A model generated the notes under the pieces. That model was not told the DNA's origin. It worked only from the letters and a program-made list of their open reading frames with translations, and did not search any database. From Nitratidesulfovibrio termitidis HI1 (GTDB lineage: Bacteria > Desulfobacterota > Desulfovibrionia > Desulfovibrionales > Desulfovibrionaceae): a DNA stretch of 64,000 bases. The position numbers and the translations under genes are program-made. Location of the stretch: positions 3,895,639-3,959,638 of the forward strand of contig NZ_KI632512.1 in NCBI RefSeq assembly GCF_000504305.1, given 5' to 3'. Shown here in pieces: positions 2,336 through 45,931 of the stretch (positions within the stretch are counted from its first letter, which is position 1; every line of letters begins with the position of its first letter).

Positions 2336-2340
2336 GGGGG

Positions 2341-7182: not shown

Positions 7183-7287
7183 GTGTTGGTGGGAGGGGAT
7201 GACGAAAATCCGCGCGCGAGACGCTTGGGCGGACATGCCCCGGCACATTCCTGCGCCGTCCAAAATCGGCGAGGCGGGCGGCCCCGC

Positions 7288-28641: not shown

Positions 28642-28950
28642 ATCAAGTTATCCGAATATTGTTGTGTAGGCGGGTATACACGCACCCCGCCACGATGTCC
28701 AGCGAAAACGGCGTCCGATATGGGCGGCGCGAAGCTTGCCGGGCAGGTGGTACGGGCTGACCGGCAGGTTTGTCCGCGTGGCGGGTGAAACGGCAAGTTC
28801 CGTACCGGAGGGGGCGTTCGCCCGGTACGGTCGCAGGGCGTCCCGTTTGCGACGCCATCACTTGACGGAGGCGATGGCTGCGGGCAAGAGCAGGGTCGAG
28901 CCCTTCCGCACACTGAGTGCGCCCGCAACACCAATGCCCACGGGAGCCGC
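28642..28950. other. divergent promoter region panC / cysteine-peptidase-like gene
   Basis: About 310 nt between divergently read genes. CCGTACCGG (28800-28808) and CCGGTACGG (28822-28830) make a 9-bp inverted repeat that could be an operator or hairpin. The panC-proximal 40 nt are AT-rich. No confident -35/-10 pair was assigned. Confidence 0.5.
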
Positions 28951-29787
28951 ATGGTCGCGCCCAATTCTCATGATACGCCCAAGGCACGGCCCGAGGCAAC
29001 GGATGCTTCCTCCGCAGTGCGGGAGCCGTCCCGCCCGGCGTCGCCGCCCCCTTCACCAGAAACGGGCCGGCCTGGTCAAACGGGCCAAGCGGGTCAAGCG
29101 GGCCAGTCGGGTCAAGCGGGCCAATCGGGCCAGCCGTACCATCAGGGGCAACTGGACGTGTTCTGCGCCGTGTACGCGGTGGCCAATGCCTTGCGCTCGG
29201 TTCATCCGCTGGGCATGGGGCAGGCGCGGCGGCTGTTCAACGAGGTGTTGCTGGACCTTGCCCGCGATACGGACGCCTTGCGCGCCGTGCTGTACAACGC
29301 CACCGACCACGATGCGCTGGTGCGCACGGTGCTGGAGCGCGCCAGCCGTGACGTGGTTTCGCTGCGCGTGGAGCGCCCCTTCGCGGCCAGCCCGGCCCTG
29401 CGCGTGACGGGCAGGGTGGGGCCGGATGCGTCGGCAGCGGGGCGGGGCGGGCGTGGGCCGGACGGCGCCGCGCAGCCCACGCCCCGCGCGGTGTGGGAAG
29501 CCCTTGTGGGCTGGCTTTGCGGCGGGGCGGGACGGGCGGCCGTGTTGCGCTTTCACCGCTATCTGCCCTTCAAGGGCGACCCGGTGATTTCGCATTGGAC
29601 GGCAGCGGGCATTCCGTTGGGCGATACACTGTTCCTGCACGACTCCAGCCGCGAAGCCAACGCCATCCACGTCATCGAGCGGGGCGGCTTCGTCACCGCG
29701 CCGGAGCATCTTTCCGACGACAGGCTGCTGCTGGTGGAGCCGCGCTGCCTGTATCTGCTGGAGATTGAAGCGCAGGGGGCTTCGTAG
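28951..29787 (+). CDS. cysteine-peptidase-like protein with collagen-like repeats
   Basis: 278 residues, family not recognised with certainty. Residues 1-66 are low-complexity and include seven Gly-Gln-X triplets. The globular part has QLDVFCAVYAVANAL with Q67 and C72, VISHWTAAG with H215, and LFLHDSS with D231, an order matching a papain/C39-like Gln-Cys-His-Asp active site. No signal peptide or membrane segment is evident, so it probably acts in the cytoplasm. The ATG at 28951 has GGGAG five bases upstream. The protease call is inference from motif order only. Confidence 0.55.
   Translation: MVAPNSHDTPKARPEATDASSAVREPSRPASPPPSPETGRPGQTGQAGQAGQSGQAGQSGQPYHQGQLDVFCAVYAVANALRSVHPLGMGQARRLFNEVLLDLARDTDALRAVLYNATDHDALVRTVLERASRDVVSLRVERPFAASPALRVTGRVGPDASAAGRGGRGPDGAAQPTPRAVWEALVGWLCGGAGRAAVLRFHRYLPFKGDPVISHWTAAGIPLGDTLFLHDSSREANAIHVIERGGFVTAPEHLSDDRLLLVEPRCLYLLEIEAQGAS
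29074..29136. repeat. 9-nt in-frame repeat in the peptidase-like gene
   Basis: Seven consecutive 9-nt units of the form GG(T/C)CA(A/G)NCG, encoding Gly-Gln-Thr/Ala/Ser/Pro. In frame with the gene. Confidence 0.9.
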
Positions 29788-29967
29788 CCGCGCCGTCTCG
29801 CAGTCGCCCAGTCTCGCGGTCTCGCGGTTCCCGGCTTCCCGGCTCTGCCGTCCCATACTCCAGCGGTCCCGCGGTCACGCGGGTGTGCCGACCGCTTGCT
29901 GCCGTTTGGCGTGCGGCGGGCAGTGCTATCCCTTTCTCTGCTTCTTTTCCTGCTCCAGTTCCTGCGC

Positions 29968-30870
29968 CTATCCCTTCCCCTGACCGGCCTCATCACCGCC
30001 CAATTGGCGCAATTCCTCGTCGGGCATGGCAAAGCCGTGTTCCGGGCCGGGAAAGACGCCGCTTTCCACTTCCTGCTTGTAGGCGCTCACGGCGGCGGTC
30101 ACCTGCCCGGCCAGGTTGGCGTAGCGCTTGACGAAGCGGGGCACCATGCGGTCCTGCAGGCCCAGCATGTCGTGCAGCACCAGCACCTGCCCGTCGCAGT
30201 CCGGCCCCGCGCCGATGCCGATGGTGGGGATGGAGAGCGCGGCGGTGATGCGCGCGGCCACGGGCGAGGGCACGCACTCCAGCACGATGGAGAAGCAGCC
30301 CGCCTGTTCCAGGGCCAGGGCGTCGTCAAGCAGGCGGCGGGCCGCGTCGGCGGTCTTGCCCTGCACCTTGAACCCGCCCAGTTGCGCCACCCGCTGCGGG
30401 GTAAGGCCGATGTGCCCCATGACCGGAATGCCCGCGTCCACCAGGGCCCGCACCTGCGGCAGGTATGGTCCTGCGCCTTCCAGCTTCACGGCGCGCGCCC
30501 CCCCTTCGCGGAACAGCCGCCCGGCATTGCGCAATGCGTCCGCCGGGCTCGTTTCGTAGGACAGGAAAGGCATGTCCGCCACCACCAGCGCGCGGGTGAC
30601 GCTGCCTGTCACGGCGCGGCAGTGGTGTACCATTTCGTCCACGGTCACGGACAGGGTGTCGCCCCGGCCCAGCATGACCATGCCCAGCGAATCGCCCACC
30701 AGGATGATGTCGATGTCGCAGGCGTCCACCAGGGCGGCGGTGGGCGCGTCGTAGGCGGTAAGCATGGCGATGCGTCGCGCGCCCTTGGCGGCGCGCACGT
30801 CCAGCGTGCCCACGGGGCGACGCGTCTGCTGCTGGGGGGTGGAACGTTCCGGTGTCGGATGGACGCTCAT
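29968..30870 (-). CDS. panB: 3-methyl-2-oxobutanoate hydroxymethyltransferase
   Basis: First committed enzyme of pantothenate synthesis (ketopantoate from ketoisovalerate and methylene-tetrahydrofolate). The 300-residue product has MLTAYDAPTAALVD near residue 37, VGDSLGMVMLG near 56, ADMPFLSY, and IPTIGIGAGPDCDGQVLVLHDMLG near 215, all diagnostic of PanB. About 20 residues of N-terminal low-complexity precede the core. panC is nearby, but the two are not in one operon. Confidence 0.96.
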   Translation of the reverse strand: MSVHPTPERSTPQQQTRRPVGTLDVRAAKGARRIAMLTAYDAPTAALVDACDIDIILVGDSLGMVMLGRGDTLSVTVDEMVHHCRAVTGSVTRALVVADMPFLSYETSPADALRNAGRLFREGGARAVKLEGAGPYLPQVRALVDAGIPVMGHIGLTPQRVAQLGGFKVQGKTADAARRLLDDALALEQAGCFSIVLECVPSPVAARITAALSIPTIGIGAGPDCDGQVLVLHDMLGLQDRMVPRFVKRYANLAGQVTAAVSAYKQEVESGVFPGPEHGFAMPDEELRQLGGDEAGQGKG

Positions 30871-31174
30871 GAAAGGCTCCTTGCTGTGCGCTGCGGGCGG
30901 AGTGCGTCCGGTGATGGCCCGGCGCGGATTACGCCGGCGCGTTTTGGCGCTGCGCGTTGGGTGATGCTTTGGCGCTGGTCACCGGGGAATGTTTCGGCGC
31001 TTCGCGTTGGGCAATCAGTCTACATCCCCCTTCGGGGCATGGCAAACCGCCGGGCATGGCTGGCCGCGAATTTCCGCCTGGTGCGGGAATCCGGCTCCAG
31101 GCAGTTTCGCGTCCGCCCGGTGTCACGCCGGCACCCGTCTCGAACTCCGCCGAATCCGGTTTATCCGGACAGCG

Positions 31175-31202
31175 TAAAGAAAAGTGAAGATCGCCCCCTA
31201 TA
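31175..31202 (+). promoter_or_regulatory. possible sigma-28 (FliA) promoter for flagellin
   Basis: TAAAGAAA is followed after 10-11 nt by a GCCCCCTATA block. This resembles TAAAGTTT-N11-GCCGATAA only partly in the -10. Its position, about 110 nt upstream of flagellin, fits. Confidence 0.35.
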
Positions 31203-31245
31203 GTTTTACATTGGCGGGCCGAAAAGAGGGGCATGAACGGCGGAT

Positions 31246-31263
31246 GATCGCATGGATGCGATC
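31246..31263 (+). promoter_or_regulatory. CsrA-binding hairpin 1 in flagellin leader
   Basis: GATCGC and GCGATC form a perfect 6-bp stem presenting the hexaloop ATGGAT, an exact ANGGAN CsrA/RsmE site. It lies 48 nt before the start codon. Confidence 0.7.
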
Positions 31264-31290
31264 GGCGTGGTGCCCCGCCCGGAACGGCGC

Positions 31291-31310
31291 AATATTCATG
31301 GAGGAATATT
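31291..31310 (+). promoter_or_regulatory. CsrA-binding hairpin 2 over the flagellin Shine-Dalgarno
   Basis: AATATTC and GAATATT form a perfect 7-bp stem with the hexaloop ATGGAG (ANGGAN). The GGAGG ribosome site (31300-31304) is in the loop and stem edge, and the start codon follows directly. Confidence 0.75.
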
Positions 31311-32201
31311 ATGTCTCTCGTAATCAATCACAACTTGATGGCAATGAATGCCGCCCGCAACCTCAGCTCGTCGTACGGCAACCTGTCCACGTCCGTGCGC
31401 CGACTGTCGTCGGGTCTTCGTGTTGGCACCGCTTCTGACGACGCGGCCGGCCTGGCCATTCGCGAACTGATGCGTTCGGACATCGCAGCCCTGAACCAGG
31501 GTGTGCGTAACGCCAACGACGCCATTTCGCTGATCCAGACCGCCGACGGCGCCCTGGGCGTCATCGATGAAAAGCTGATCCGCATGAAGGAACTGGCCGA
31601 ACAGGCCGCTACCGGTACCTACACCTCGGACCAGCGTCTCATCATCGATTCGGAATACCAGGCCATGGCCTCGGAAATCACCCGAATCGCCAACTCGACG
31701 GACTTCAACGGCATCCACCTGCTCAACGGCAACCTGTCCGGCGCCACCCACGATGGTTCCGGCCTCGTGTCCACCGGCAAGCTGAAGGTCCACTTCGGCT
31801 CGGCCAACGACTGCTCGGAAGACTACTACTACATCCGCATCGGCACCTCCACGGCGTCGGCGCTGGGCGTGGGCAGCCAGGCAGCGGAAGGCAAGGGCAA
31901 GTCGATCTCCACGCAGTCTGCCGCGCAGGCCGCCCTGGAAGGCATCGAGAACGCCATCATCTCGAAGGACAAGATTCGCGCGAACCTTGGTGCGCTCCAG
32001 AACCGTCTGGAAAACACCATCAGCAACCTGCAGATCCAGTCGGAAAACCTGCAGGCCGCCGAATCGCGGATTTCGGACGTGGACGTTTCGAGCGAAATGA
32101 CCGAATTCACCCGTCAGCAGATCCTGACCCAGGCTGCCGTCGCCATGCTCTCGCAGGCCAACTCCCTGCCGCGTATGGCCATGCAGTTGCTGGGCGGCTA
32201 A
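31311..32201 (+). CDS. flagellin
   Basis: 296-residue filament subunit exported by the flagellar type III system. The conserved N-terminal D0/D1 region (LVINHNLMAMNAARNLSSS, then RLSSGLRVGTASDDAAGLAI) and C-terminal D1/D0 region (NLQAAESRISDVD, TEFTRQQIL, AMLSQAN) are intact. The central variable region is only about 120 residues, making this a short flagellin. It has its own leader with two CsrA-type hairpins and a strong terminator, so it is probably monocistronic. Other flagellar genes are not in the window. Confidence 0.97.
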   Translation: MSLVINHNLMAMNAARNLSSSYGNLSTSVRRLSSGLRVGTASDDAAGLAIRELMRSDIAALNQGVRNANDAISLIQTADGALGVIDEKLIRMKELAEQAATGTYTSDQRLIIDSEYQAMASEITRIANSTDFNGIHLLNGNLSGATHDGSGLVSTGKLKVHFGSANDCSEDYYYIRIGTSTASALGVGSQAAEGKGKSISTQSAAQAALEGIENAIISKDKIRANLGALQNRLENTISNLQIQSENLQAAESRISDVDVSSEMTEFTRQQILTQAAVAMLSQANSLPRMAMQLLGG

Positions 32202-32244
32202 GGCACACACCGTAAGGTGGAGGGGTTTTGGCAGACACGCTCGA

Positions 32245-32271
32245 CCGGGCCGCGCAAGCGGCCCGGTTTTT
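32245..32271 (+). terminator. flagellin terminator
   Basis: CCGGGCCGC and GCGGCCCGG form a perfect 9-bp stem around GCAA, followed by TTTTT. It lies 43 nt past the flagellin stop. Confidence 0.92.
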
Positions 32272-32378
32272 GTGCGTTTGTCGCCAGCCTGTTGTTTACA
32301 GCGGTGGGCGGCATGCGGCATCGTGGCGTGCATCCCCCATTCCGCAGCCGCAGCGTAGCCGTACCGCAGGAGAATTCC

Positions 32379-33044
32379 ATGGCCGTGCCTTCCGTCCCTT
32401 CGTCGAATACGCCCCCGAATACGCACCGGGATGCTTCGTCCGGGCCGTCACGCCTGCCGGAAGTGCTGGCCGCCGTGTTCGTCGTGGTGTTCATCGTGCT
32501 GGGCATTGCCCCGTACGACCGTACGGTGTGGTACATGGAGGTCACGCCGGTCATCACCATCTTTCTGCTGCTGGCGGGCACGGCGCGCAAATTCCGGTTC
32601 AGCGGCGCGGCCTATCTGCTTATGGCGGTGTGGCTGTTCTGGCACACCGTGGGCGGGCACTACACCTTCGAACGGGTGCCCTTCGGCTTCATTACCGATG
32701 CCTTCGGCTTTGCGCGCAACCATTTCGACAGGGTGGGGCATTTCAGCGTGGGCTTCTATGCCTATGCCTTCGCGGAACTGCTGACGCGCCGCCGTCTGGC
32801 CGGGCCGGTGGTGACCATGCTGTTCGCGTTGTTCGCCATCATGGCCGTGGCCTGCGGCTGGGAAATCCTGGAATGGCTGGTGGCCGATGCCGAAGGCGGC
32901 GAGGCGGGGCTGGCCTTTCTGGGCAGCCAGGGCGACGTGTGGGATGCTCAGAAGGACATGCTGGCCGATACGCTGGGGGCGGTGTTCGCGTTGGTGCTGT
33001 TCCGGCTGTGCGGCAGGCGCTGGGGCAGCATGGACCCGGTGTAG
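32379..33044 (+). CDS. DUF2238 (YjdF-like) integral membrane protein
   Basis: 221-residue inner-membrane protein with about six hydrophobic segments. The conserved segment NHFDRVGHFSVGFYAYAFAELL around residues 112-133, with paired polar residues near a membrane face, then CGWEILEWLVAD and DVWDAQKDMLADTLGA, match the DUF2238/YjdF family. Function is unknown. The ATG at 32379 has AGGAG upstream. It is separate from flagellin because of the intervening terminator. Confidence 0.82.
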   Translation: MAVPSVPSSNTPPNTHRDASSGPSRLPEVLAAVFVVVFIVLGIAPYDRTVWYMEVTPVITIFLLLAGTARKFRFSGAAYLLMAVWLFWHTVGGHYTFERVPFGFITDAFGFARNHFDRVGHFSVGFYAYAFAELLTRRRLAGPVVTMLFALFAIMAVACGWEILEWLVADAEGGEAGLAFLGSQGDVWDAQKDMLADTLGAVFALVLFRLCGRRWGSMDPV

Positions 33045-33354
33045 GCCCGGTTTGGGGGTAACGGGCGCGTCTGGGCGGCAGGGCGCGCGATGCCGGAGGC
33101 AGACCGGTGCGGCTGAAAGCGGGCGAGCACGGGCGGGATTGTCCTGATGTGCCCTGATATGGCCTGATATGACCTGACGTGTCCTGCCGTGCCCTGATGA
33201 CTTGGTAGGGCTGGACGGCAGTGCGGTCCGGAGCGGCGGGCCGTTTGGACAGCACCGGGGAAATGCCGTATGCCGGACGGGCGCGCCGCGCGGCGCATCC
33301 GGTGGCTTTTCACCGGGCGCTGGCGGCCGACGTCATTTTTTCCGGAGCCTTGCC
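33045..33354. other. intergenic region with a 10-nt repeat array
   Basis: About 310 nt between the DUF2238 gene and the HD-phosphohydrolase gene. Apart from the decamer array at 33141-33200 nothing was recognised. Confidence 0.6.
33141..33200. repeat. 10-nt tandem array, six units
   Basis: Six decamers in register of the form G(N)CCTG(A/C)(T/C)(A/G)T start at 33141. The unit length matches the array upstream of nth, but the sequence differs. Confidence 0.88.
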
Positions 33355-33978
33355 ATGACCGCCTGCAATCCCCAGTTGAACCTTCAGGGGCGCGGCCGCC
33401 TGAAGCGCATCGTCGATTTCCTGAACGAGGCGGGCATGCTGCGCCTCACGCCGCGCACCGGCTACCAGTTTCTCGGCACCGGCAACGAGAACGTGGCCGA
33501 ACACTCCTTCCGTACCGCCATCATCGGCTACGTGCTGGCCCGCATGGCCGGGGCCGATCCTTCCCGTACCGCCATGCTGTGCTTGTTCCACGACTTTCAC
33601 GAGGCGCGCATCGGCGACTTCAACTACGTCAACCGCATCTACAACACCACCAAGCCGCGTGACGCCGTGGTGCATGCCGCCGAGGGCACTGGCCTTGAAG
33701 TGGACATGTTGGAATTCTGGGACGATCTGGAAGCCTCGCAGACGCCCGAGGCGCAACTGGCCCACGACGCGGACCAGTTGGACCTGATCCTGAACCTGAA
33801 GCGCGAACTGGACCTGGGCAACAAGTACGCGGGCAAGTGGATGGAAAGCGCGCTGGAGCGGCTGCACACCGAAGAAGGCCGCGAACTTGCCCGGACCATT
33901 GCCGAAACCGACCACACCGACTGGTGGTTTCTGGGCCCGGACCGGGCGTGGTGGGAGAGGAAGAACGGGAAGGAGTGA
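33355..33978 (+). CDS. YfbR-like HD-domain 5'-nucleotidase
   Basis: 207-residue HD-superfamily phosphohydrolase, probably a metal-dependent deoxyribonucleoside 5'-monophosphatase. Metal ligands are visible as AEHSFRTA (H50), LFHDFHEARIGD (H79, D80) and HDADQLDLIL near residue 140. Length and motif order match YfbR/HDDC2 proteins. The C-terminus is WFLGPDRAWWERKN. It is the last high-GC gene before the AT-rich island. Confidence 0.88.
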   Translation: MTACNPQLNLQGRGRLKRIVDFLNEAGMLRLTPRTGYQFLGTGNENVAEHSFRTAIIGYVLARMAGADPSRTAMLCLFHDFHEARIGDFNYVNRIYNTTKPRDAVVHAAEGTGLEVDMLEFWDDLEASQTPEAQLAHDADQLDLILNLKRELDLGNKYAGKWMESALERLHTEEGRELARTIAETDHTDWWFLGPDRAWWERKNGKE

Positions 33979-34031
33979 GTGTGGTAGTGTGAATACGTTG
34001 AATAGCTTGGCGAATATATACCAATGTTTGA

Positions 34032-35387
34032 CTAATGTCCGATCACCCTTTTTGCAAAATGTTTTAAGATATGGCTGCTAGGGTGTGCGGCTAAGCTTAC
34101 TAGTTTGTTTGCTAAAGCAATCGGAATCAATGCGGAGTCATACATATCGCAGTGAAGCTCTTCAATATGCGTTAAGATTGTTTCAAGATTTGGTATATCC
34201 TGAGGAAGGGGGGTCTTTTTTAATTCCCGAACTGGTGCAGAGATAACGTGCATCTGCCCCGATTGTGTTTTGAATATAATTTTATGCCCATAGTATGATG
34301 TCGATGCGTATGGCCGTGTGGGATCTTCGTTGCCTGGTGATATGTAGCTGTATATGTAGGCGTCGCTAAGGATGAGGAACGATCCTGCGGGCATTTTCTT
34401 TTGTATGTCTCTTGCGTGGTCGACAAATGCTCCGCTCTTTTCAAGGCCAACAAGTAAGACGTTATAATTGTCAAACAGCCAACAAACTAGGTCGTTCATT
34501 GGTTTGTGTAACCGGGCTGTTTGACCAAAAAAACCTGTAGGCCGATCCATAATGAAGAGAACCGACTTGAGACGATCGGGTTGGTAGCGGAGAACGTGGC
34601 GAATTATGTGGATTGTTATTATATGTTCAATCACGCCAGTAAGATAGCTGCAAATTCCACCTGCGCCGAGATCGTTGTCGATGACTTCGTGGAAGCGGAA
34701 AATGTCTGTCAGATATATTTCTTTTTTAGTCGTCGGGCATATGTAGATGCCATTACCTGTAACATCTTCCTCTTTTAGTTCTATCTGTCCATATGAACTT
34801 CCATGTGGATTGCTTGATAGAGTCCAGCTTTTGTCGCTCGGTTCTCTTTTCGCGGAAGGTTTGTATTGTTTAAATATAAACCATCGCAGCGTATCTAAAA
34901 GGCTTTCTTCTTCGCTTAAAGTTTCCGTTTTGAAAAAGTTATAAATTTCACTCCTGACAGAATCCAAAAGAGTGTTTTCGCTTTTGAAGTGGACTCCCTT
35001 TGTTGGCAGCACAAGCTTGAGTCGTTCGATGTTCTTTAGGCGCGCCATGTCTTCAGGGGCGATAAAGCTGCATTGCTCTATGGCGTGAAGATCGGCTCGT
35101 TCAAACCTAAGCGCGCCAAATTGAAAGAAGTGAATAATTGCAGATGGGAAGTCCTTGCGGACCGCAGTCTCTGTGTAGCCGCCATCAATGGCGACAATAT
35201 CTGTAATCGGGCTGATTTTTTGTGGTGTAAACGTGTGGATCATATCCTCAATCGATTCACCCTTCATTAAGGGAGGGATCCAGAGTCTCTCTAGTGCATT
35301 CTGCACCTTGGGGTCGTTAATGATGTGGTGGTGCGATGCTTTGCTAGCCCTTTCAAAGGGCTTTGGTCCATTCTTTGAGTATCCCAT
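34032..35387 (-). CDS. NurA-domain nuclease, component of a methyltransferase-HerA-NurA operon
   Basis: 451-residue protein whose core matches the NurA fold, a metal-dependent 5'-3' nuclease that partners HerA in archaea. The first metal site is DIVAIDGGYTE (63-73, Asp68). A second acidic block is FIMDRPTGFFGQTARLH (278-294), followed by VGLEKSGAFVDHARDI (313-328). These three motifs in order are the NurA pattern. It begins 9 nt after the herA stop, with a weak Shine-Dalgarno, so it is probably translated by coupling. Codons are A/T-rich, unlike the flanking genes. Assignment is from motif order, without alignment. Confidence 0.78.
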   Translation of the reverse strand: MGYSKNGPKPFERASKASHHHIINDPKVQNALERLWIPPLMKGESIEDMIHTFTPQKISPITDIVAIDGGYTETAVRKDFPSAIIHFFQFGALRFERADLHAIEQCSFIAPEDMARLKNIERLKLVLPTKGVHFKSENTLLDSVRSEIYNFFKTETLSEEESLLDTLRWFIFKQYKPSAKREPSDKSWTLSSNPHGSSYGQIELKEEDVTGNGIYICPTTKKEIYLTDIFRFHEVIDNDLGAGGICSYLTGVIEHIITIHIIRHVLRYQPDRLKSVLFIMDRPTGFFGQTARLHKPMNDLVCWLFDNYNVLLVGLEKSGAFVDHARDIQKKMPAGSFLILSDAYIYSYISPGNEDPTRPYASTSYYGHKIIFKTQSGQMHVISAPVRELKKTPLPQDIPNLETILTHIEELHCDMYDSALIPIALANKLVSLAAHPSSHILKHFAKRVIGH

Positions 35388-35396
35388 GGCATTGCC

Positions 35397-37433
35397 TTAG
35401 GTGCGAGGCGCGTTTTCGGGGGGGAATCTGTCGACTTGTACTGGGACAACAAAAGCGTTGCTATATGTCTTCATCCGTACAAAGCCCTTGTCTGTGTCTT
35501 GGCTAAATCGGATTAAACTTTCCGTGAAATCACTAAAGTCGTAGTATTTTCGTAATTCACGGATTTCGTCTTCGTTATTAAGGTGTGAGATGAACCAATT
35601 TTGTGTGGCCTTTAATATGTTTGAGCTGATGGAGCTGACTTCTTGGGTGGCATAGACGAGGCCTAGGTTCAGTTTTGCGCCTTCTTTCGCAAGCCTGTTG
35701 TAGATTTGGGATAGATCCTTATCTTCTTTTTTGGGGAATAGGTTGTGTGCTTCTTCAAAGTAAAATTGTATGAAGTTGTTTGGTAGTGTTGATGTAAATC
35801 TATTCATTGCGTCTCGGAAGATATGGCGAGTTATCCGTTCTGTGAACATTCTTTGTATGTCGTCATCACCAAGAGATAGGTCAACGATTACGATATTCCC
35901 AGCGCGGAGCTGCGCTAGGATATCTGTGTCAAAAGGTTTTTGATTTGTCGAGGTGTGTTGTGGAATGATCTCTTTGAGTATGCGAAACCCAGAGCAGTCT
36001 GTACGCCCCCCAGGGGACCTCTTTCTCGTGAGAATTGTGAGGAGGGCCTTTAAGTCATCGTCAGCCCATTCTTTTTGTTTTTTCTTTTTATAGTCGCTAA
36101 AAACATCGGCATCTTCGTACACGGTCCAAAGTGAATCCCACCACTCGGCAGATTCCTCAAGGGTAAGTCCATTCTTTGGGTCTGTGTTTGTACTAACTAC
36201 TGTACGAATATCTCTATTTGCTACGAAGCTGACTTTAAAGTCACTAGGTGGTGTAAAGCCCGCGCGATAGAGGCACGAGTAGTAGACGGCTAGCTTTCGG
36301 TCGTATCTGTTTTTTGCAGACTTGTTCTCATTATAGTCTTCGGGTTTGTCTAAGACGACATTTCGGAAGTTTGTGGCAAAGCGCGAAGAGTCTTCTGCGA
36401 TGCTGGGATGGGAGCATATTAAGTTAAATCCAGCTTCGAGTTCGTTGTAGAAATTAACCTTCATTTCTTTGAAGCCGTTTTTTTTAACGGTTGAATATCT
36501 TACTGTTGTATCTTTATATAAGTCGAATATCGCTGTTCCTTGGTCTTGAAGGTTCGGGTTCGCGTATTCGCCGTTGATGTCGAAAATGATTTGCCCAATT
36601 GGATATTTGGGAGTTCCTGTGTCTGTGAAGGGTTTAAGGACTTCGTCAGTACTTTCTCTATACTGGTCGAGAATGAGAGATGAGTGTAGGCTCATTTCTA
36701 CGTTGGCTTGGATGATCTTTTTGACAGTATTGGATTTTCCTGTCCTGGTCATTCCGAACATTGCAGTTCGTTTCCCGGCGAAGTCTTGGGCTTGAGCGTA
36801 TACAGGGACTTCAGGTTCTTTTCCTTGGAAACGCAGGCTAGAACTGTATCTTACTTTTCCAACCCGAATATCGGAGATGCTTCCGGGGGTTCCGAACTGG
36901 CGGTAGTTGACTATGTATTTTAGAATATCTGGGGACGGCTTGATGACGGAGTAGTTGTGTGAGCTGTAGAAATTCTCAAGATCCGCTCCAAAGCGAGTGT
37001 TTTTGTGCTCGTCTTTGTAGAAACAGCCCAAGATGGCGCACTTCAAGCCGCTAAAAGAGAATTCGTAGCGTGTAAAGGTGTCCAGTTGCGAGCGTTTTGT
37101 TTCGCCAGTTTCTATGCCTTCTTTGTAATATTCTACTAGGCTGCTGACTACATCAGGGTCTGTTGGAAGTGTTGTTGGTGATAGGACGCGTAGTAGTATT
37201 GCCTCAAGTGATGTGTCATCTTTTGGTTCATTGTCGTAGTATGCGATTAAAAAACATCCCTGTGGGATGCCCCCGGCATTTTGCTTCCAGGCGTCCGCAA
37301 CGAGTATTTCGACATGTGCATAGCTGAGTCTGAATGGGCGACCAACAAACTCGCCAGTGTCCCAAAATAGCTTCCCTTCGTTTTCCTTTCGCCTAAATAT
37401 ATTTGTCTGTGAAAGCTGCTTGCTTATACTCAT
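35397..37433 (-). CDS. HerA-type hexameric DNA-pumping ATPase
   Basis: 678-residue ATPase of the FtsK-HerA superfamily (DUF87 type). The N-terminal 210 residues resemble the HAS barrel that docks NurA in archaeal HerA. Walker A is GMTRTGKS (227-234), IIFDINGEY near 283 is the typical HerA strand after it, Walker B is FIQFYFEEAH (554-563), and VYATQEVSSI near residue 595 is the sensor. The start codon overlaps the methyltransferase stop (ATGA). With the nuclease next door it probably forms a translocase-nuclease complex that degrades unmodified DNA. The specificity mechanism is unknown. Confidence 0.88.
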   Translation of the reverse strand: MSISKQLSQTNIFRRKENEGKLFWDTGEFVGRPFRLSYAHVEILVADAWKQNAGGIPQGCFLIAYYDNEPKDDTSLEAILLRVLSPTTLPTDPDVVSSLVEYYKEGIETGETKRSQLDTFTRYEFSFSGLKCAILGCFYKDEHKNTRFGADLENFYSSHNYSVIKPSPDILKYIVNYRQFGTPGSISDIRVGKVRYSSSLRFQGKEPEVPVYAQAQDFAGKRTAMFGMTRTGKSNTVKKIIQANVEMSLHSSLILDQYRESTDEVLKPFTDTGTPKYPIGQIIFDINGEYANPNLQDQGTAIFDLYKDTTVRYSTVKKNGFKEMKVNFYNELEAGFNLICSHPSIAEDSSRFATNFRNVVLDKPEDYNENKSAKNRYDRKLAVYYSCLYRAGFTPPSDFKVSFVANRDIRTVVSTNTDPKNGLTLEESAEWWDSLWTVYEDADVFSDYKKKKQKEWADDDLKALLTILTRKRSPGGRTDCSGFRILKEIIPQHTSTNQKPFDTDILAQLRAGNIVIVDLSLGDDDIQRMFTERITRHIFRDAMNRFTSTLPNNFIQFYFEEAHNLFPKKEDKDLSQIYNRLAKEGAKLNLGLVYATQEVSSISSNILKATQNWFISHLNNEDEIRELRKYYDFSDFTESLIRFSQDTDKGFVRMKTYSNAFVVPVQVDRFPPENAPRT

Positions 37434-38467
37434 TCGGATACCTGCCTGTTTGTAAACTCAGGTGCTGTGAACCTTATTTGGGATTGCTCAACGTATTTTT
37501 CTTCAGCGTCAACAGCAATCCAATATCTATCGTGTGTTGCTGCTGCAAAGCCAGTTGTATTGCTGCCTGCGAAGGGGTCCAGAACCAAATCCCCTTTTTC
37601 TGTGAGGAATTCAATAAAGAATCCAGCGAGACCTATTGGCATCCTCGCTGGGTGTGGGGAAATATTTTTTTCCTTGCATGCTTTGTGAAAATAGTCATTT
37701 GAAGATGTGTTTGCCATTGAAAAAGTGTTTGGAAGCCTTGTCTCGCGAGTTTCATCGAGTGCGTCAATCTCAAAAAAATTATGAGCTATAGCCCCGCCTT
37801 GATCTTTTAAAAAACCCGACGTGCTTATATTGTGTTCAGATGGCCGCTTACCTGCGTTGTAGTTTCCACGTTTTAGAAGCTTTAGCATTGACTGACTATA
37901 TGGTCTTAGCACGTTCTTGTTGTCAGCCTTGGGATAGTCAGATTTAGCAAGCCACCATACATGGGTGAAGCTGTCTACTGTTCTGATGCGATTTACGGTT
38001 ACCCATTGCGCAGGTGAAGGAAGTCGTGATGGATTGTAGCATATGAATTGCTGTATTAGCCTTAGATTCGCTTTTTTGTGGCGCGCAAAACCTAGTAATG
38101 ATTCTAGATGCAGAAGTGATTGTATCGGTCTATTGGGTTCCCAGGAATTTCCTAGCTCGAGAACAATAGAGCCTGTTTCTGTTAATAGACTTGAAAAGAT
38201 TGGTGCTAATGAGGTAAACCATTTTAAGTAGCTGTCTCCCGTTAGATTGCCATAGCTTTTTTTAGTGTTGAGTGGGTACGGTGGGGATGTGAGAATCAGG
38301 TCAACGTTCCCGCGCAACTGCTCAAAACGTTTGCTTTTTAATATTTTGGGGGAATCGCCGACAAAATAAAGTCCATCTTCACAAACGTGTGCAGCTTGGT
38401 TCTTGGGGAGTGAAGCTAGTAACTCTTTTTTCGAAGGCTGCATGTTCTTGTTCCGTTTCGTCTGCAT
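37430..38467 (-). CDS. beta-class DNA methyltransferase (N4-cytosine or N6-adenine)
   Basis: 345-residue S-adenosylmethionine-dependent DNA methyltransferase. The catalytic motif IV TSPPYPL is at 60-66 and the SAM-binding motif I DPFAGSNTTG at 297-306, the permuted order of the beta class. SPPY favours N4-cytosine, but N6-adenine members exist. It has a long central variable region likely to contain target recognition. It is first in the operon and overlaps herA by 4 nt, so host protection would be made before the nuclease. The start could be Met1 (38467) or Met9 (38443); neither has a strong ribosome site. Confidence 0.9.
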   Translation of the reverse strand: MQTKRNKNMQPSKKELLASLPKNQAAHVCEDGLYFVGDSPKILKSKRFEQLRGNVDLILTSPPYPLNTKKSYGNLTGDSYLKWFTSLAPIFSSLLTETGSIVLELGNSWEPNRPIQSLLHLESLLGFARHKKANLRLIQQFICYNPSRLPSPAQWVTVNRIRTVDSFTHVWWLAKSDYPKADNKNVLRPYSQSMLKLLKRGNYNAGKRPSEHNISTSGFLKDQGGAIAHNFFEIDALDETRETRLPNTFSMANTSSNDYFHKACKEKNISPHPARMPIGLAGFFIEFLTEKGDLVLDPFAGSNTTGFAAATHDRYWIAVDAEEKYVEQSQIRFTAPEFTNRQVSE

Positions 38468-38584
38468 GTTTTTCTTTACGCGTCTACTAATTGTCCGATA
38501 CTGGATAGCGAGGCAAGCTTTTTTTGATTGTTTGCAAACGGTTCTGTTGGGTTTGAAGTGTGACCTAGAGGAAATTTCCCAGGA

Positions 38585-39808
38585 TCACTCAGGATTCCTG
38601 AGCACCTCCAGCACCTCCACCCGCGATGCCTGCCACGCCGGGTATGCCCCGGCCACCAGCCCCAGCAGCACGGACGCCACGCACGCCCCGACGATCAGCA
38701 GCGGGTCGTACAGGTACGGAAAATCGCCCACCGCATACACCACGCTGACGATGCCGACAGCCGCCATCACCCCGGCGGCCCCGCCCACCCCGGCCATCAC
38801 CCCGGCCTCGGCCAGAAACTGGCGGATGATCACCGTGCGGCTGGCGCCCACGGCCCGGCGGATGCCGATCTCCAGCCTGCGGGCGCGCACCAGCAGGATC
38901 ATGATGGACAGGATGCCCAGCGCCCCCACGGCAAACGAGATGGACGACGACAGCACCCCCAGCGTCCACACCAGGTCCAGCGCCTGATTGCGCAGCCGGG
39001 CCGAATCCTGCGCCGAGATAACCGAAAAATCGTCCTTGCGGCTTGGCCCCATGTGGTGGCGGCGGCGCAGAATGTCGGTGACGGTGGCCTTGGCTGCGGC
39101 CTCGTCGTTCTGGTTGTGCAGGTTCATGAACACGCCGCTGATCCAGTCCTGGTTGGTGAAGCGGCGCATGTACGTGGACAGCGGGGTGAACACCATCTCG
39201 TCAAGGTTGGCCCCGGTCACGTCCTGGCCCTTCTCGGGCAGCACGCCCACCACCAGCACGTTGGCGCGAAAGAAGAACACCTGCCTGCCCACGGCGTCTG
39301 CCGGGTCGCCGAACAGGCGCTGCGCGATGGCGTAGCCCAGCACGCACACCTTGGCCTGCGTGGCCTCTTCTTCATCGTTGTAGAAGCGGCCATGCTCGGT
39401 TTCCAGCATGCGCACCTGCGCGTAGGCCGGGGGCGACGCCATGAGCTGGCTGCCGGTGGTCACCCGGCCATGGCGTACCGGCATGGAGCCGCCGGCATAG
39501 GGCACGCCAAGGCGCACCTGCGGCACGGACCCCAGGATTTCGCGGGCGTCCTCCAGGCTGAAGGTGGTGGTCATGCCGGTGACGCGGGTGGAGCCTTCAC
39601 GCCGGAAGTTGGCCTGCCCGGACATGGCCTGCAGCAGGTTGGGGCCAAGGCGCTGCGTCTCGATGTCGGCCTTCTTGACCATGGCCTTCGAGATGTGCAG
39701 CACGGCGGTAAGCGCCAGTGCGCCCAGAAAGACCCCCAGCATGGCCAGCACCGTACGCATGCGGTGGGCGGCCAGCGAACGCAGGGCAATGCGCAGCCGC
39801 TGCATCAC
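38585..39808 (-). CDS. MacB-type ABC transporter permease
   Basis: 407-residue permease with the MacB layout: one membrane helix near residue 20-45, a large extracytoplasmic domain (about 45-270) and three C-terminal helices (FtsX-like domain, IMILLVRARRLEIGIRRAVGAS near residue 305, which contacts the ATPase). It is the last gene of a four-gene export operon, overlapping the second permease by 4 nt. The stop codon is followed by the AT-rich island on the same strand. Confidence 0.92.
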   Translation of the reverse strand: MMQRLRIALRSLAAHRMRTVLAMLGVFLGALALTAVLHISKAMVKKADIETQRLGPNLLQAMSGQANFRREGSTRVTGMTTTFSLEDAREILGSVPQVRLGVPYAGGSMPVRHGRVTTGSQLMASPPAYAQVRMLETEHGRFYNDEEEATQAKVCVLGYAIAQRLFGDPADAVGRQVFFFRANVLVVGVLPEKGQDVTGANLDEMVFTPLSTYMRRFTNQDWISGVFMNLHNQNDEAAAKATVTDILRRRHHMGPSRKDDFSVISAQDSARLRNQALDLVWTLGVLSSSISFAVGALGILSIMILLVRARRLEIGIRRAVGASRTVIIRQFLAEAGVMAGVGGAAGVMAAVGIVSVVYAVGDFPYLYDPLLIVGACVASVLLGLVAGAYPAWQASRVEVLEVLRNPE

Positions 39809-41112
39809 TCACCCCCGCGCAGGGCCTGGATGGGGTCCAGCGCGGCGGCCTGCCGCGCCGGGCGCAGCCCGAACACCAGCCCCACCGCCGTGGCGGCGGC
39901 CAGGGCCAGCAGAAATACCTTGACCGACAGCACCATCTCGATGAGCCCCAGGCGTTCCAGCATCTGGCCCATCAGCGCGCCCAGCACCACGCCGCCCACG
40001 GCGCCGCACAGGGTCAGCGCAAGGGATTCCATGAGGAATTGCAGCAGGATGGCTCGTCCCGGCGCGCCCAACGCCTTCTTGAGGCCGATCTCCACCCGCC
40101 GTTCGGTGACCGAGAGCAGGAACAGGTTGGCCAGCACGAAGCCGCCCACGATCATGGCCGCCGCCGCCGTCACTCCCAGAAAGAGCACCAGCCCGCCCTT
40201 GATCACGGACAGGAATTTCAGCACCTCGCGCGCGGTGAGGATGGTGAAGTCGTCGGGGTCTTCGGGCGCCAGACGGTGCAGGTGGCGCAGCAGGCTGCGC
40301 AGGTCTTCCACGTGGGCGTCCATACCCGCCACATCCTCGAACTTCACGCGCAGGGCGCGAAAGTAGCGGCGGTCCATGTTGAAGCGCTGGGTCAGGGTGG
40401 TGAGGGGAATGATCACGCGGTCGTCCACGCTGCTGCCGCCGCCGGACATGCCCCGGTACTGCATCAGCCCCACCACGGTGAACGGCACGCCGGACATCAG
40501 GAAGGTCCGCCCCACGGGGCTTTCGTCGCCGAACAGCTCGCGGGCGGGCCTGTCGCCCATCAGGGCCACGCGCGCGCCACGCTGCACGTCTTCCGCCGTC
40601 AGGTCACGGCCTTCCACCAGCGGCCAGTTCCAGGCCCTGGCGTAGTTTTCGGTGGTGCCCGCCACCAGCGACACGTCGTAGTTGTTGGCCTCGTGCTTCA
40701 GGCGCACGTTGCCCTTGGAGCGCATGGGCAGCACGATGTACGCGCCCGGCAGCGACTGGCGGATGCGCGATGCGTCCTCCCAGGTCAGGGTAAGGGTGCG
40801 GGCGCCCACGGCGCGGTTGACGATGTTGCCGCCGAACACCAGCACTGCGTCCGGCCCGAACATGTCGGCGATCTCGTCGGCCTTCTTGGACGCGCCATCC
40901 ACGGCGGCCACGATGACCGTCAGCGAGGCGATGCCCAGCGACACGGCGGCGATGACGAAAAAGCTGCGCAGCCGGTAGGCCAGCAGCGCGGAAAGGCCCA
41001 GCGCGGCGGCGCGCCAGCCTTCGCGCGCCAGCGCGGGCAGGCTCCGCCCGCCGAAGCGCCCGGAAGGGGGGCCGTGTTCCGGGCTGGATGCCATGCCCGC
41101 CGGGGTGGTCAT
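39805..41112 (-). CDS. MacB-type ABC transporter permease
   Basis: 435-residue permease with the same layout as its neighbour: a membrane helix at about residues 45-65, a large periplasmic domain and an FtsX-like C-terminal domain with LFLLSVTERRVEIGLKKALGA near residue 330. It overlaps the ATPase gene and the second permease by 4 nt each, so all are translationally coupled. Two distinct permeases probably form a heterodimer. Confidence 0.92.
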   Translation of the reverse strand: MTTPAGMASSPEHGPPSGRFGGRSLPALAREGWRAAALGLSALLAYRLRSFFVIAAVSLGIASLTVIVAAVDGASKKADEIADMFGPDAVLVFGGNIVNRAVGARTLTLTWEDASRIRQSLPGAYIVLPMRSKGNVRLKHEANNYDVSLVAGTTENYARAWNWPLVEGRDLTAEDVQRGARVALMGDRPARELFGDESPVGRTFLMSGVPFTVVGLMQYRGMSGGGSSVDDRVIIPLTTLTQRFNMDRRYFRALRVKFEDVAGMDAHVEDLRSLLRHLHRLAPEDPDDFTILTAREVLKFLSVIKGGLVLFLGVTAAAAMIVGGFVLANLFLLSVTERRVEIGLKKALGAPGRAILLQFLMESLALTLCGAVGGVVLGALMGQMLERLGLIEMVLSVKVFLLALAAATAVGLVFGLRPARQAAALDPIQALRGGE

Positions 41113-41894
41113 GCGGATGCTCCACCCGCCGCGGCGTTGCCATGCAGGCCGTCGCTTTCGATGACCCCGTCGCGGATGACGATGCGCCGCCGGGCGCGGG
41201 CGGCGGTTTCCGCGTCATGGGTCACCACCACCACGGTCTTGCCGGTGCGGTTGATGTCCGCGAACAGGTCCAGGATGTCGGCGCTGGTGGTGGAGTCGAG
41301 CTGGCCGGTGGGTTCGTCGGCCAGGATCAGGGCGGGGTCGTTCAGCAGGGCGCGGGCCAGGGCCACGCGCTGCTGCTGTCCGCCGGAAAGGCGCGCGGGC
41401 ACGAAGTCCATGCGGTCACCCAGGCCCACGCGGTGCAGCAGGTCTTCCGCCCGCTTGCGCTGGGCGCGCAGGTTCTTGTGGCTGTACAGGCCGGGCAGCA
41501 GCACGTTGTCCAGCGCGGTGGCGTAGGGGATGAGGTAGAAGTTCTGGAACACGAAGCCGGTCAGCTGGTTGCGTGCTTCCGAGCGGGCGTCGTCGTCCAG
41601 GTGCGACACGTCGTGCCCGTCCAGCACGTAGCGGCCCGCAGTGGGGCTGTCCAGCAGGCCCAGAATGTGCAGCAGCGTGGATTTGCCGGAGCCGGAAGAC
41701 CCCTGGATGGCCACGAATTCGCCGCGCGCGATGGAAAAACTGACGCCGCGCAGCACGTCCACGGTCAGGTCACCCTGGGTGAAGCTGCGGGTGATGCCGG
41801 ACAACTCGACCAGCGGTGCGCCGGAGCCCGCCGACGGGGCGGGGGTTTCCTCCGTGCCGGGTCGCAGTGCCGTGTCGTTGGGGGTGGTGGTCAT
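41109..41894 (-). CDS. ABC transporter ATP-binding protein, MacB/LolD-type
   Basis: 261-residue ATPase powering the MacAB-like exporter. Walker A is GSSGSGKST near residue 63, the signature LSGGQQQR near 167, Walker B LILADEPTG near 187 and the H-loop VVVVTHD near 220. The ATG at 41894 is chosen because the upstream extension is low-complexity. It lies between the adaptor gene (13-nt gap) and the first permease (4-nt overlap). Confidence 0.93.
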   Translation of the reverse strand: MTTTPNDTALRPGTEETPAPSAGSGAPLVELSGITRSFTQGDLTVDVLRGVSFSIARGEFVAIQGSSGSGKSTLLHILGLLDSPTAGRYVLDGHDVSHLDDDARSEARNQLTGFVFQNFYLIPYATALDNVLLPGLYSHKNLRAQRKRAEDLLHRVGLGDRMDFVPARLSGGQQQRVALARALLNDPALILADEPTGQLDSTTSADILDLFADINRTGKTVVVVTHDAETAARARRRIVIRDGVIESDGLHGNAAAGGASA

Positions 41895-41907
41895 GCCGTG
41901 CGCCCCG

Positions 41908-43194
41908 TTACCGGCCCGGCCGCCCGGAACCCGGACCGCCCCCACCCGGGCCGCCCGATGCCTGCTCGGTGCGCGCCCCCCCGCGCGAGGCGGGCAGCAC
42001 CACCCTGGTGCCCACCACGTCGCCCTCGGCCAGCCCTTCCAGCACTTCGCTGGTCTCGGCACCGGCAAGGCCGATGCGTGGCCGCACCCGGCGGATGGCC
42101 CCGTCGCCCTGCACGAACACCACCTGCTCGCCGCCCACCCATTTCAGGGCCTCGTTGGGCACGGCCAGCACGTTGTCCTTCTGCTGCACCACGATGCGAC
42201 ACTGGGTGGTCATTTCGGGCCGCAGGTCGGTGGAGGTCTGCGAAGTAAGGCGCACCAGCGCCCGATAGTACACGATGTTGTCGCGGATTTCCGGCTGCGG
42301 ATAGATCTGGTTCACCGTACCGCCAAAGGTGCGGCCCGGCAGCGAATCCACGCGAAACTCCACGGCCATGCCGGGGGCCACCTGGCCCACGTCGGTTTCA
42401 TCCACGTAGATCCACATTTCCAGCCGGGTGGGGTCCAGCACGGTGATCAGGTTGGCCACCTGAAAGCCCGCCACCACGGTTTCGCCGCCCTGCGCCGTGA
42501 CCTCGCTGACCACCCCGTCCAGCGGGGCGCGGATCACCGAATAGGACAGGCGCACGTTGGTGGCCTCCAGCGCGGACTGCGCCTCTTGCACGGCCTCGCG
42601 GGCGCTTTTGATGGCCAGGGTCGATTCGCGCTGCAAACGGTCCAGGGTGGCCTTGCGCGCGGCCAGGGTGTTGGCGGTGGTTTCCGCCTGCTGCGTGGCC
42701 TCGTCCAGGGTGTTGCGGGCGTCCAGATCCTGGTCCACCAGGGTGCGGCGGCGCTTCAGGTTCAGGGCGGCATAGTCATAGTCGGCCTGCGCTGCGGCCA
42801 CCTGGGCCTCGGCCTCGCGGATTTGCAGGGGGTACGAGGCCTCGGTCTTGGCAAGGTCCGCCTTGGTCCTGCGCAGGGTGGCTTCCGCCTGATCCTGCTG
42901 GGCGCGCTGTTCCCGGTCGTCGATTTCGGCAATGATCTGCCCGGCCTTCACCTTGTCGCCCACCTTGACGTGCATGGTGCGGATGATGCCGGTGAACCGG
43001 GTGCCGGTCTTCACGATGGCGCCCACCTCGGGCTTGATGATGCCCGTGGCGTCCAGCACCTTGCGCACGGTGGCCCGGCTGACCGTGGCGGACTGGGTGA
43101 TCTCGGTGCGGCCTTCGCGCCGCGACAGGAAGTAGGTGGCGATAAGGGCCACGGCGAGGGCGATGGCGATGCCGATGATGATCTTCTTGCGCAT
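41908..43194 (-). CDS. MacA-like periplasmic adaptor (HlyD/RND-MFP family)
   Basis: 428-residue membrane-fusion protein linking the ABC permeases to an outer-membrane channel, which is not in the window. Residues 4-23 are a membrane anchor, then a lipoyl half (VGDKVKAGQIIAEID near residue 78), a long coiled coil (about 90-195) and the second half RAPLDGVVSEVTAQGGETV near 220, then beta-barrel domains. A glycine-rich tail ends the protein. The exported substrate is unknown. Confidence 0.92.
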   Translation of the reverse strand: MRKKIIIGIAIALAVALIATYFLSRREGRTEITQSATVSRATVRKVLDATGIIKPEVGAIVKTGTRFTGIIRTMHVKVGDKVKAGQIIAEIDDREQRAQQDQAEATLRRTKADLAKTEASYPLQIREAEAQVAAAQADYDYAALNLKRRRTLVDQDLDARNTLDEATQQAETTANTLAARKATLDRLQRESTLAIKSAREAVQEAQSALEATNVRLSYSVIRAPLDGVVSEVTAQGGETVVAGFQVANLITVLDPTRLEMWIYVDETDVGQVAPGMAVEFRVDSLPGRTFGGTVNQIYPQPEIRDNIVYYRALVRLTSQTSTDLRPEMTTQCRIVVQQKDNVLAVPNEALKWVGGEQVVFVQGDGAIRRVRPRIGLAGAETSEVLEGLAEGDVVGTRVVLPASRGGARTEQASGGPGGGGPGSGRPGR

Positions 43195-43595
43195 GGGGTT
43201 CCCGTGTTCGTGAAGTATTGGGAAGTATGGGAAAGTCTGGGCGGTATGGCAGTGGGAAAGGGTGGCCCCTTGGGGCGAACGTGACGCCGCTGACGGGTGG
43301 CGGCCGGCCCCGTATGCGGCGTGCCTGACGCACACGGGGCACGGGCACGGGGCACGGGGCGCCGGGCAATGCCGGGACTATAAGTATTCGCGCGGCGAAG
43401 GGGAAGGGCATGCGCGGGATGGAACGGCAAGGGGCGTGAGGTTGGCGCCGCGCGTGGGCGGCGCGGGCAGGGAAGGGGGTGTCGCCCGAACACTGCCCGC
43501 CGGTTGTTGTGCTGTCGTGCGGTGCGATCCTGCGCGGTTTTGTGGCGGGTGCCGCCGCCCGGCCTCTGCCGGTGTCCGCCGGGAAAACGGAGGGG
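43195..43595. other. intergenic region upstream of the macA-like gene
   Basis: About 400 nt between two minus-strand genes. Short degenerate repeats occur, such as GGGCACG copies near 43338-43365. It presumably holds the export operon promoter, but none could be assigned. Confidence 0.55.
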
Positions 43596-44606: not shown

Positions 44607-44941
44607 GGGGGTGCTCCTTGCGTCGCCACGCCCCCACGGAATGCGGGGGCGCGCCCCACCATGTAGAGGAAGCACGAAGCCGGGTCAACCGTCCGGCGGA
44701 CGTGGTTTTTCAAGGCCTGGCGCGGGCTGCCGCCATTGGGCGGACCTTGGGAGCGTTCCGCCCGCTGGCGGGGCGCCCCGGAAAGGAGCGTGCCGCGAAG
44801 CGTGCGCCGGGGTGTTGACACCGCCGCGAGCGGATTTAGCTAATTTCCGGAAAGGGTGCGGCGGACATCCTGCTCCATTCGCATGCCGCCGCACTGCGGC
44901 AATGGCAAATCATGAACGTGCCAGACCAAGGAGGTACCCTC
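44607..44941. other. divergent intergenic region with hsp20 promoter
   Basis: About 335 nt between the hypothetical gene and the Hsp20 pair. It contains the promoter candidate at 44815-44844; nothing else was recognised. Confidence 0.6.
44815..44844 (+). promoter_or_regulatory. sigma-70-type promoter for the hsp20 pair
   Basis: A perfect TTGACA is followed after 18 nt by GCTAAT, about 100 nt before the first Hsp20 start. A heat-shock sigma-32 promoter pattern was not seen. Confidence 0.55.
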
Positions 44942-45819: not shown

Positions 45820-45841
45820 CGCATCCCCACCGTCGCAATGA

Positions 45842-45872
45842 AAAAGGCCCCCGGCAATGTCGGGGGCCTTTT
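45842..45872. terminator. bidirectional terminator hsp20 / corA
   Basis: AAAAGGCCCCCG and CGGGGGCCTTTT form a perfect 12-bp stem around a 7-nt loop. A and T tracts at both sides suit termination in both directions between convergent genes. Confidence 0.93.
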
Positions 45873-45931
45873 CGCGATGTGTGAGTACGCTTCGTGCTCT
45901 TCGGGAGATGAATGGGCAGTCGAAACAGCCC

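Follow-up and report, generated by a model that had tools for sequence, protein, structure and literature searches.

In Thermus, the TdpABC system joins DNA modification to restriction: TdpC makes phosphorothioate DNA, and TdpAB is the restriction arm, which attacks unmodified phage DNA. Here, we present an analysis of a three-gene operon in a 64,000-nucleotide (nt) stretch of the Nitratidesulfovibrio termitidis HI1 genome (contig NZ_KI632512.1, positions 3,895,639 to 3,959,638; the whole stretch is referred to as the window, and coordinates are counted from its first letter). The operon encodes a DNA methyltransferase (MT), a HerA-type ATPase and a predicted NurA-fold nuclease, and we consider it probable that it is a mobile modification-guided restriction module, the methylation-guided counterpart of TdpABC. 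No description of an MT–HerA–NurA restriction system was found in the available excerpts of the open-access literature; the nearest set there is that of the Thermus thermophilus element ICETh1, in which TdtA, an FtsK/HerA-type protein, is co-transcribed with a NurA-like nuclease, a type IIG enzyme and a 410-amino-acid (aa) N4-N6 methylase, and DNA donation requires all of these but the methylase, whose effects are minor (excerpts of PMC5365140, PMC7767461). For archaeal HerA–NurA, end resection has been doubted and an antiviral role proposed, and the term "methyl" does not occur in that paper (PMC12977600). HerA/FtsK capture systems are likewise described without mention of NurA in the portions available (PMC10853773, PMC12839542).

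The genes of the operon, and one interval of interest within them, are as follows:

37430–38467, minus strand: MT of 345 aa with LTSPPYPL … VLDPFAGSNTTG; β-class, N4-methylcytosine (m4C)-type by motif order and homology
35397–37433, minus strand: HerA-type ATPase of 678 aa with GMTRTGKS … FYFEEAHN; closest solved relative TdpA
34032–35387, minus strand: predicted NurA-fold nuclease (TdpB-like) of 451 aa with DIVAIDGGY
35940–36431, minus strand: HerA residues 335–498, the fast-evolving interval between Walker A and Walker B (identity over 35 loci)

A check of the open reading frames (ORFs) recovered these three genes, their strand, the 4-nt overlap between the MT and HerA genes (37430–37433) and the 9-nt gap between the HerA and NurA genes (35388–35396) exactly where an earlier note on this DNA had placed them. 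Because it is conserved over many phyla, we regard the trio as a real gene set and not a product of chance. An Rfam scan of 33500–39000 gave no match, and scans of the locus for promoters and terminators yielded about as much as shuffled sequence.

The MT matches Pfam N6_N4_Mtase above the cut-off (101.8 bits, 6.8e-29; cut-off 26.7), PADLOC MTase_II (1.5e-72) and the structure of its homologue M.PvuII (1boo, 9.2e-58), and it carries motif IV (TSPPYPL) toward the N-terminus and motif I (DPFAGSNTTG) toward the C-terminus. We take the order of motif IV before motif I, together with TSPP-Y/F, to be the β-class m4C signature; this motif order and the homology to an m4C enzyme assign the protein to the β-class, m4C-type, as the earlier note had proposed for the class, and the mark that it places is probably N4-methylcytosine. 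Over 35 loci, mean identity is 60% for the MT, 59% for HerA and 48% for NurA. In these loci, entropy stays at or below 1.4 bits in all 20-residue segments of MT residues 61–320, and the lack of a hypervariable block suggests a single fixed target motif across many phyla. The earlier note had also held that the set has no specificity subunit; there is indeed no separate gene for one, but the MT is an M.PvuII homologue, so that the set need not lack sequence specificity.

HerA was correctly recognized in the earlier note as well: the window protein matches Pfam DUF87/HerA above the cut-off (52.7 bits, 7.7e-14; cut-off 23.2) and has both Walker motifs, of which Walker A (GMTRTGKSN) and Walker B (YFEEAH) are invariant in 35/35 HerA proteins. 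Its top sequence match in the PDB is TdpA (8wet_A), both for the single sequence (4.9e-18) and for the profile (6.7e-26), and the profile scores TdpA at 94 bits and the next best entry at 55 bits. HerA is predicted to be a hexameric DNA translocase. It has no long hydrophobic stretch (maximum 19-residue Kyte–Doolittle value 1.08). Residues 335–498 are the fastest-evolving long stretch, with a mean identity of 43% compared with 67% for the remainder of HerA over 35 loci. This stretch was considered as a reader of the methylation motif; however, its divergence shows partial correlations of only −0.09 with MT distances and −0.12 with NurA distances, and it is therefore unlikely to be one. It may instead sense the invader, or it may simply be free of constraint.

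Searches of Pfam, PADLOC and NCBIfam found no match at E≤1 for the window NurA protein, and PDB sequences gave none at that threshold for its profile. Its assignment comes from relatives and from fold. A tblastn search against plasmids and phages found relatives in seven records, of which three are annotated as NurA, and Pfam NurA matches 28/73 relatives at E≤0.01 (best 9.3e-12). In the alignment of 73 members, which includes the window protein, D68, D228, E254, D281, G314, K317 and G319 are invariant and H324 is kept in 68; D68, E254, D281 and H324 are putative catalytic positions. An AlphaFold2 model built with the 73-row alignment has a mean pLDDT of 87.7 (a single-sequence prediction reached 33.2 and was discarded). 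Foldseek placed TdpB (E 4.4e-08), Deinococcus NurA (9.3e-06) and Pyrococcus NurA (1.5e-05) at the top for this model. By VIA-align, TdpB (8wfd_G) scored Z 20.9 at an rmsd of 4.1 over 316 residues, followed by the NurA proteins of Sulfolobus (Z 14.2), Pyrococcus (12.3), Thermococcus (12.2) and Deinococcus (11.7), with endonuclease V and Argonautes at about 9 and below; sequence identity to TdpB is only 9–13%. The model thus lies inside the NurA fold with TdpB as its closest neighbour, and the 451-aa protein is, by prediction, a nuclease of the NurA (RNase H-like) fold, which bears out the NurA-type nuclease of the earlier note. A zinc ribbon was rejected as a common reader of the NurA family, as CxxC…CxxC occurs in just 32/73 members and is missing from the window protein. 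In a PADLOC scan of the 73 members, a single one matched, weakly, the phage-defence candidate family PDC-M32A (2.1e-4); at E≤0.001, no other PADLOC family was matched by these relatives.

The trio recurs widely. A scan of genome contigs with a single conserved NurA peptide pattern (alignment A1) gave 84 relatives, a lower bound because one pattern was used, and 80 were kept; scans of genome contigs with the window NurA sequence alone and of viral contigs with alignments A1 and A3 found none. The loci (designated by L numbers) come from Cyanobacteriota, Bacteroidota, Bacillota, Actinomycetota, Chloroflexota, Pseudomonadota, Campylobacterota, candidate phyla and haloarchaea, and the NurA tree spans at least 14 phylum-level groups, one of them archaeal, with the phyla intermixed. 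In 70/82 dereplicated loci, an MT lies within 350 nt of the HerA–NurA pair (54 N6_N4-type, 16 D12), so that the neighbourhood conservation that the earlier note had asked about is present; 67 of these 70 MTs are on the same strand as the pair, and 59 of the 67 overlap it or lie ≤30 nt away. The set of 82 was obtained by removing duplicates (L001, L089, L006, L058, L007), loci with partial NurA (L059, L060, L093, L094) and loci without a HerA match (L017, L053, L090); it keeps near-duplicates, e.g. L029–L031 and L047/L049/L050, and counts L016, L021 and L091, whose flanks are truncated, as MT-less. As a rough control, which covers D12 and leaves the N6_N4-type outside, the D12 profile matched 6/340 other flanking ORFs (≥200 aa, offset ≥2).

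Three architectures occupy the MT slot: the β m4C-type, in which TSPP lies toward the N-terminal end and motif I toward the C-terminal end; a permuted m4C-type of ~400 aa, whose N-terminus matches the end of the Pfam profile and in which TSPP lies near residue 250; and a Dam-like D12 enzyme (m6A-type). On the NurA tree (77 rows: 39 β, 12 permuted, 15 D12, 5 none, 3 other, 1 mixed, 2 unlabelled), the MT classes follow the NurA clades. Taken alone, the three classes can be explained by 5 changes; with all seven labels, 13 are needed, compared with 35.2 in shuffles and with none of 200 shuffles as low, although near-copies on the tree favour the clustering of any label. The labels were set by hand, those of L067 and L068 following their relative L065; the unlabelled rows are L017 and L091. 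Within the β class, distances between HerA and NurA correlate at r=0.87 (permutation maximum 0.24), whereas MT distances correlate with those of HerA or NurA at only 0.35–0.37, values that hardly exceed the permutation maxima (0.30 and 0.36); these values are for 35 of the 37 β-loci (L040 and L050 are without full-length HerA), a set that leaves out L024 and L062 (partial MT) and the near-copies L030 and L031. A second β lineage in L011, L022 and L028 forms a long supported branch and carries TSPPFAL as in M.PvuII, in a tree that does not include M.PvuII itself, in which the very long branch of permuted-class L054 was disregarded and for which only L108, L113 and L115 of eight extra MT proteins were long enough. 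L011/L028 share 72–80% identity in HerA and 71–74% in NurA with L010/L013/L063, which carry the dedicated MT, and 44–48% in the MT. Because of these identities and the contrast between the correlations, HerA and NurA behave as a unit and the MT is exchangeable.

In the window, the operon sits in an insert between two convergent host genes:

33980–38586, no strand: foreign low-GC insert, 43.9% GC, flanked by convergent host genes
33202–33978, convergent with the right flank gene: left host gene, HD domain
38585–39808, convergent with the left flank gene: right host gene, MacB/FtsX-type permease

The GC content of the operon is 0.440 compared with 0.670 for the window (sd 0.014, minimum 0.640; 253 overlapping segments). 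The right flank is present in 8/8 genomes of the genus, including the window's own, and NurA was not found in the seven others, two of which are <90% complete. Both flanks align in one locus in four of these, where 59, 109, 871 and 1102 bp stand instead of the 4.6-kb insert; among the remaining three, L100 and L102 end too early and L099 has no left flank within 1.5 kb. NurA was found in 1/59 relatives searched, namely the window's own genome, and in 6/395 genomes of the phylum at E≤0.001, the own genome included and two of the matches partial. Because of the GC contrast, the empty sites and the absence from genomes of the same genus, we conclude that the operon was horizontally acquired as a foreign low-GC insert. 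The insert ends have no clear terminal repeat, merely two indistinct 8-nt direct repeats. By Pfam, the neighbours between 27790 and 47311 are pantothenate synthesis genes, a flagellin, a DUF2238 membrane protein, the HD-domain protein, an ABC exporter with an HlyD-type protein, and CorA; one neighbour is unmatched, and none of those scanned by profile in this interval is an integrase. As a separate observation, the spacer that occupies the insert site in the same-genus relatives L099, L100, L101 and L104 contains repeats with GTCGGAGACATAACGAAATC or near variants; three exact copies of GTCGGAGACATAACGAAATC lie elsewhere in the window's genome and none in the window.

We suggest that the module would work as follows. 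The MT would modify one short, fixed sequence motif throughout the host genome, the base mark probably being N4-methylcytosine. A TdpA-like HerA ring would pump duplex DNA into a TdpB-like NurA dimer, which would cut it. Unmarked incoming DNA would be degraded, whereas DNA with the mark would escape in one of two ways. The moving complex may be slowed or stopped by the mark, which would account for the exchangeability of marks, or the MT may be part of the complex and contribute to recognition, which would account for sequence specificity. What we infer here comprises the assembly of the ring, the activity of the nuclease, the mark and how it is read, and any action against phages or plasmids. 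The earlier note had read the operon as a restriction module, and this remains the best supported reading given the MT in 70/82 loci, the three architectures in its slot and TdpAB as the best match; the archaeal end-resection pair that the note had cited gives way to TdpAB as the closest solved relative.

More tentatively, and with doubt, we speculate that HerA–NurA and TdpAB are a mark-agnostic restriction engine, to which any mark is a hindrance to its movement along DNA rather than a sequence to be read. One nuclease family could then work with chemically different marks because each is an obstacle, the self-marks being m4C (two permuted architectures), m6A (Dam-like) and phosphorothioate (Tdp). 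If so, swapping the MT alone would re-set self. If the restriction-module reading is right, base methylation and DNA phosphorothioation would have a restriction arm in common, and a compact immune module of three genes that is present in many phyla would have been largely overlooked so far, its nuclease being nearly without a match in the 2023 defence profile library (1/73 members, weak). The trio is a clean test case for how a DNA pump without evident specificity may tell marked from unmarked DNA, and it bears on the role of HerA–NurA outside repair.

Several points weigh against the restriction-module reading. HerA–NurA has no evident sequence reader, the likeness to TdpAB could stem from shared HerA–NurA ancestry and not from shared function, and a dedicated MT without a hypervariable specificity region is atypical of target-diversifying restriction systems. 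The distances of the MT are only loosely tied to those of its partners, as described above, and all 80 genome loci derive from a single NurA pattern, so that the sample represents this family only. Neither of the two profiled kinds of MT lies directly next to the pair in nine loci that have ≥1.5 kb of flank on each side, all of them cyanobacterial (L002, L003, L004, L009, L012, L014, L019, L020, L055). A more distant MT may serve such loci: all five whole genomes searched (L009, L019, L020, L055, L058) have a match to the MT profile (A4) elsewhere, at 319–432 bits, with internal stop codons in 3/5; L003 and L004 have no A4 match in their plasmid records, which alone were searched; and the genome of the truncated locus L017 has an MT of the dedicated type (545 bits) on another contig. 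Finally, most neighbours of the related loci are not defence genes, and in Thermus an operon that combines HerA, NurA and a methylase serves DNA donation, according to the excerpts of PMC5365140.

Other genes were observed around several of the loci without an adjacent MT. In L012, L014 and L016 (~1250–5890), an MT of 594–669 aa lies one gene farther upstream, next to an 877-aa protein; in L014, the only one tested, this protein has ResIII and TnsA-like domains. Both genes stand directly upstream of HerA–NurA, and the locus looks as though it houses two restriction arms. In L020, an ORF of 1067 aa that carries an NPPY motif lies 1.8 kb downstream. The cyanobacterial loci L002, L003, L004, L019, L020 and L055, which have no adjacent MT, share an 82–90-aa ORF of one family upstream of HerA; where annotated or scanned, it is an XRE-type regulator.

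Among the rival explanations, abortive defence survives best, although we regard it as unlikely: a phage factor would trigger HerA–NurA, the infected cell would be killed, and methylation would merely protect the resting host genome. HerA residues 335–498 diverge fastest and independently of the MT and NurA, as a surface facing changing phage partners might, and HerA–DUF4297 and Sir2–HerA are known phage-defence systems in the source excerpts available. However, the window HerA is nearer to TdpA than to the other defence HerA proteins in the PDB, and its fast stretch may be simply unconstrained; by sequence, abortive defence and restriction are indistinguishable.

Slightly less likely still is DNA donation, in which HerA would export chromosomal DNA, NurA would trim it and the MT would be accessory, as for TdtA, the NurA-like nuclease and the methylase of ICETh1. 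That co-transcribed set (PMC5365140, PMC7767461, as excerpted) is, by gene content, the strongest argument against a purely defensive role, and relatives of the HerA–NurA pair do occur on plasmids and phages. Yet no type IIG enzyme was found in the window operon or the scanned neighbours, HerA lacks the long hydrophobic stretch whereas TdtA is at the membrane, and the trio is a sporadic insert in many phyla; around the insert (27790–47311), 9/10 Pfam-scanned neighbours are housekeeping or transport genes and one is unmatched, the next gene encoding the HD-domain protein. The least likely is DNA repair by a bacterial end-resection pair with the MT as a bystander, which has in its favour the folds shared with archaeal and Deinococcus HerA–NurA and is made improbable by the sporadic distribution (1/59 relatives, 6/395 phylum genomes), the MT beside the pair in 70/82 loci and the mixing of phyla on the NurA tree.

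The surroundings of the related loci fit the restriction-module reading in part. We surveyed 114 of 222 eligible flanking ORFs at 59 loci, picked by closeness to NurA with a composition filter; the matches given are those to the best 25 of 254 and the best 25 of 161 families. Among the matches listed, PtuA/PtuB models account for 14/114 sampled neighbours, alongside a single AbiTii, two KwaB-like proteins, integrases, resolvases and transposases, and also housekeeping genes. The survey had no background control, and the context is therefore supportive only. A two-gene pair lies directly downstream of NurA in 9/11 Bacteroidota loci (L038, L042, L043, L047, L049, L050, L051, L061, L069; L034 and L041 are without it), and the pair of L043, the only one scanned by itself, matches PtuA (2.1e-207) and PtuB (5.2e-102). 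The trio together with this PtuA/PtuB-like pair (Septu) is perhaps a five-gene composite system. In the Vibrio phage records L007 and L008 (1–6000), HerA–NurA and an opposing D12 MT lie between an integrase and an excisionase; the D12 match was scanned in L007, where HerA is split, and HerA is whole in L008. Downstream of NurA in L029–L032 come two ORFs that are possibly a second defence module: the first lies on the opposite strand, encodes 559–587 aa and is SMC-like in L030, and the second is D12-type, with a length of 392 aa (81 aa in L029, where the contig ends). In L005 (Deferribacter), the HerA gene is apparently split by a TnpB/TnpA element (6515–8294).

The operon was compared with described systems. 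In PADLOC, the window NurA matches 0 families, HerA matches generic HerA models and mad8 (39.7 bits), and the MT matches the generic MTase_II, among the best 25 of 63 families. PD-λ-5 of an E. coli prophage is a compacted restriction-modification and abortive-infection system (excerpt of PMC9519451). The D12 MTs of the actinobacterial loci L080 and L083 match its PADLOC model PD-Lambda-5_B (7.7e-48 and 5e-48), and no PD-Lambda-5 model is among the matches listed for the window proteins (for the MT, the best 25 of 63 families). HerA–DUF4297 and Sir2–HerA also couple a HerA motor to an effector enzyme, but the effector is of another kind and no MT is reported for them in the excerpts at hand. 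Their HerA matches are weaker, at 55 and 53 bits compared with 94 for TdpA, for the PDB entries that presumably belong to these systems. The operon shares an M.PvuII homologue with PvuII-type restriction-modification and differs from classical type II systems in that it consists of MT, HerA and NurA genes only; there is no classical endonuclease gene, and no dedicated restriction endonuclease lies beside the MT, the neighbours being the HD-domain protein and the MacB/FtsX-type permease. It resembles archaeal and Deinococcus HerA–NurA (2ygk, 3taz, 9x1m, 7f6d) in the fold of both proteins, with lower fold scores to the window NurA (Z 14.2 to 11.7). In gene content, it resembles ICETh1 in having a HerA-type ATPase, a NurA-like nuclease and an N4-N6 methylase in one operon, and differs from it by the extra type IIG enzyme and the DNA donation role of the latter. 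The closest likeness is to TdpABC: HerA is best matched by TdpA and NurA by TdpB (structures 8wet, 8wfd), and a DNA-modifying enzyme adjoins motor and nuclease in both, the difference being that the third gene of the operon encodes an N6_N4 methyltransferase and not the phosphorothioation enzyme TdpC.

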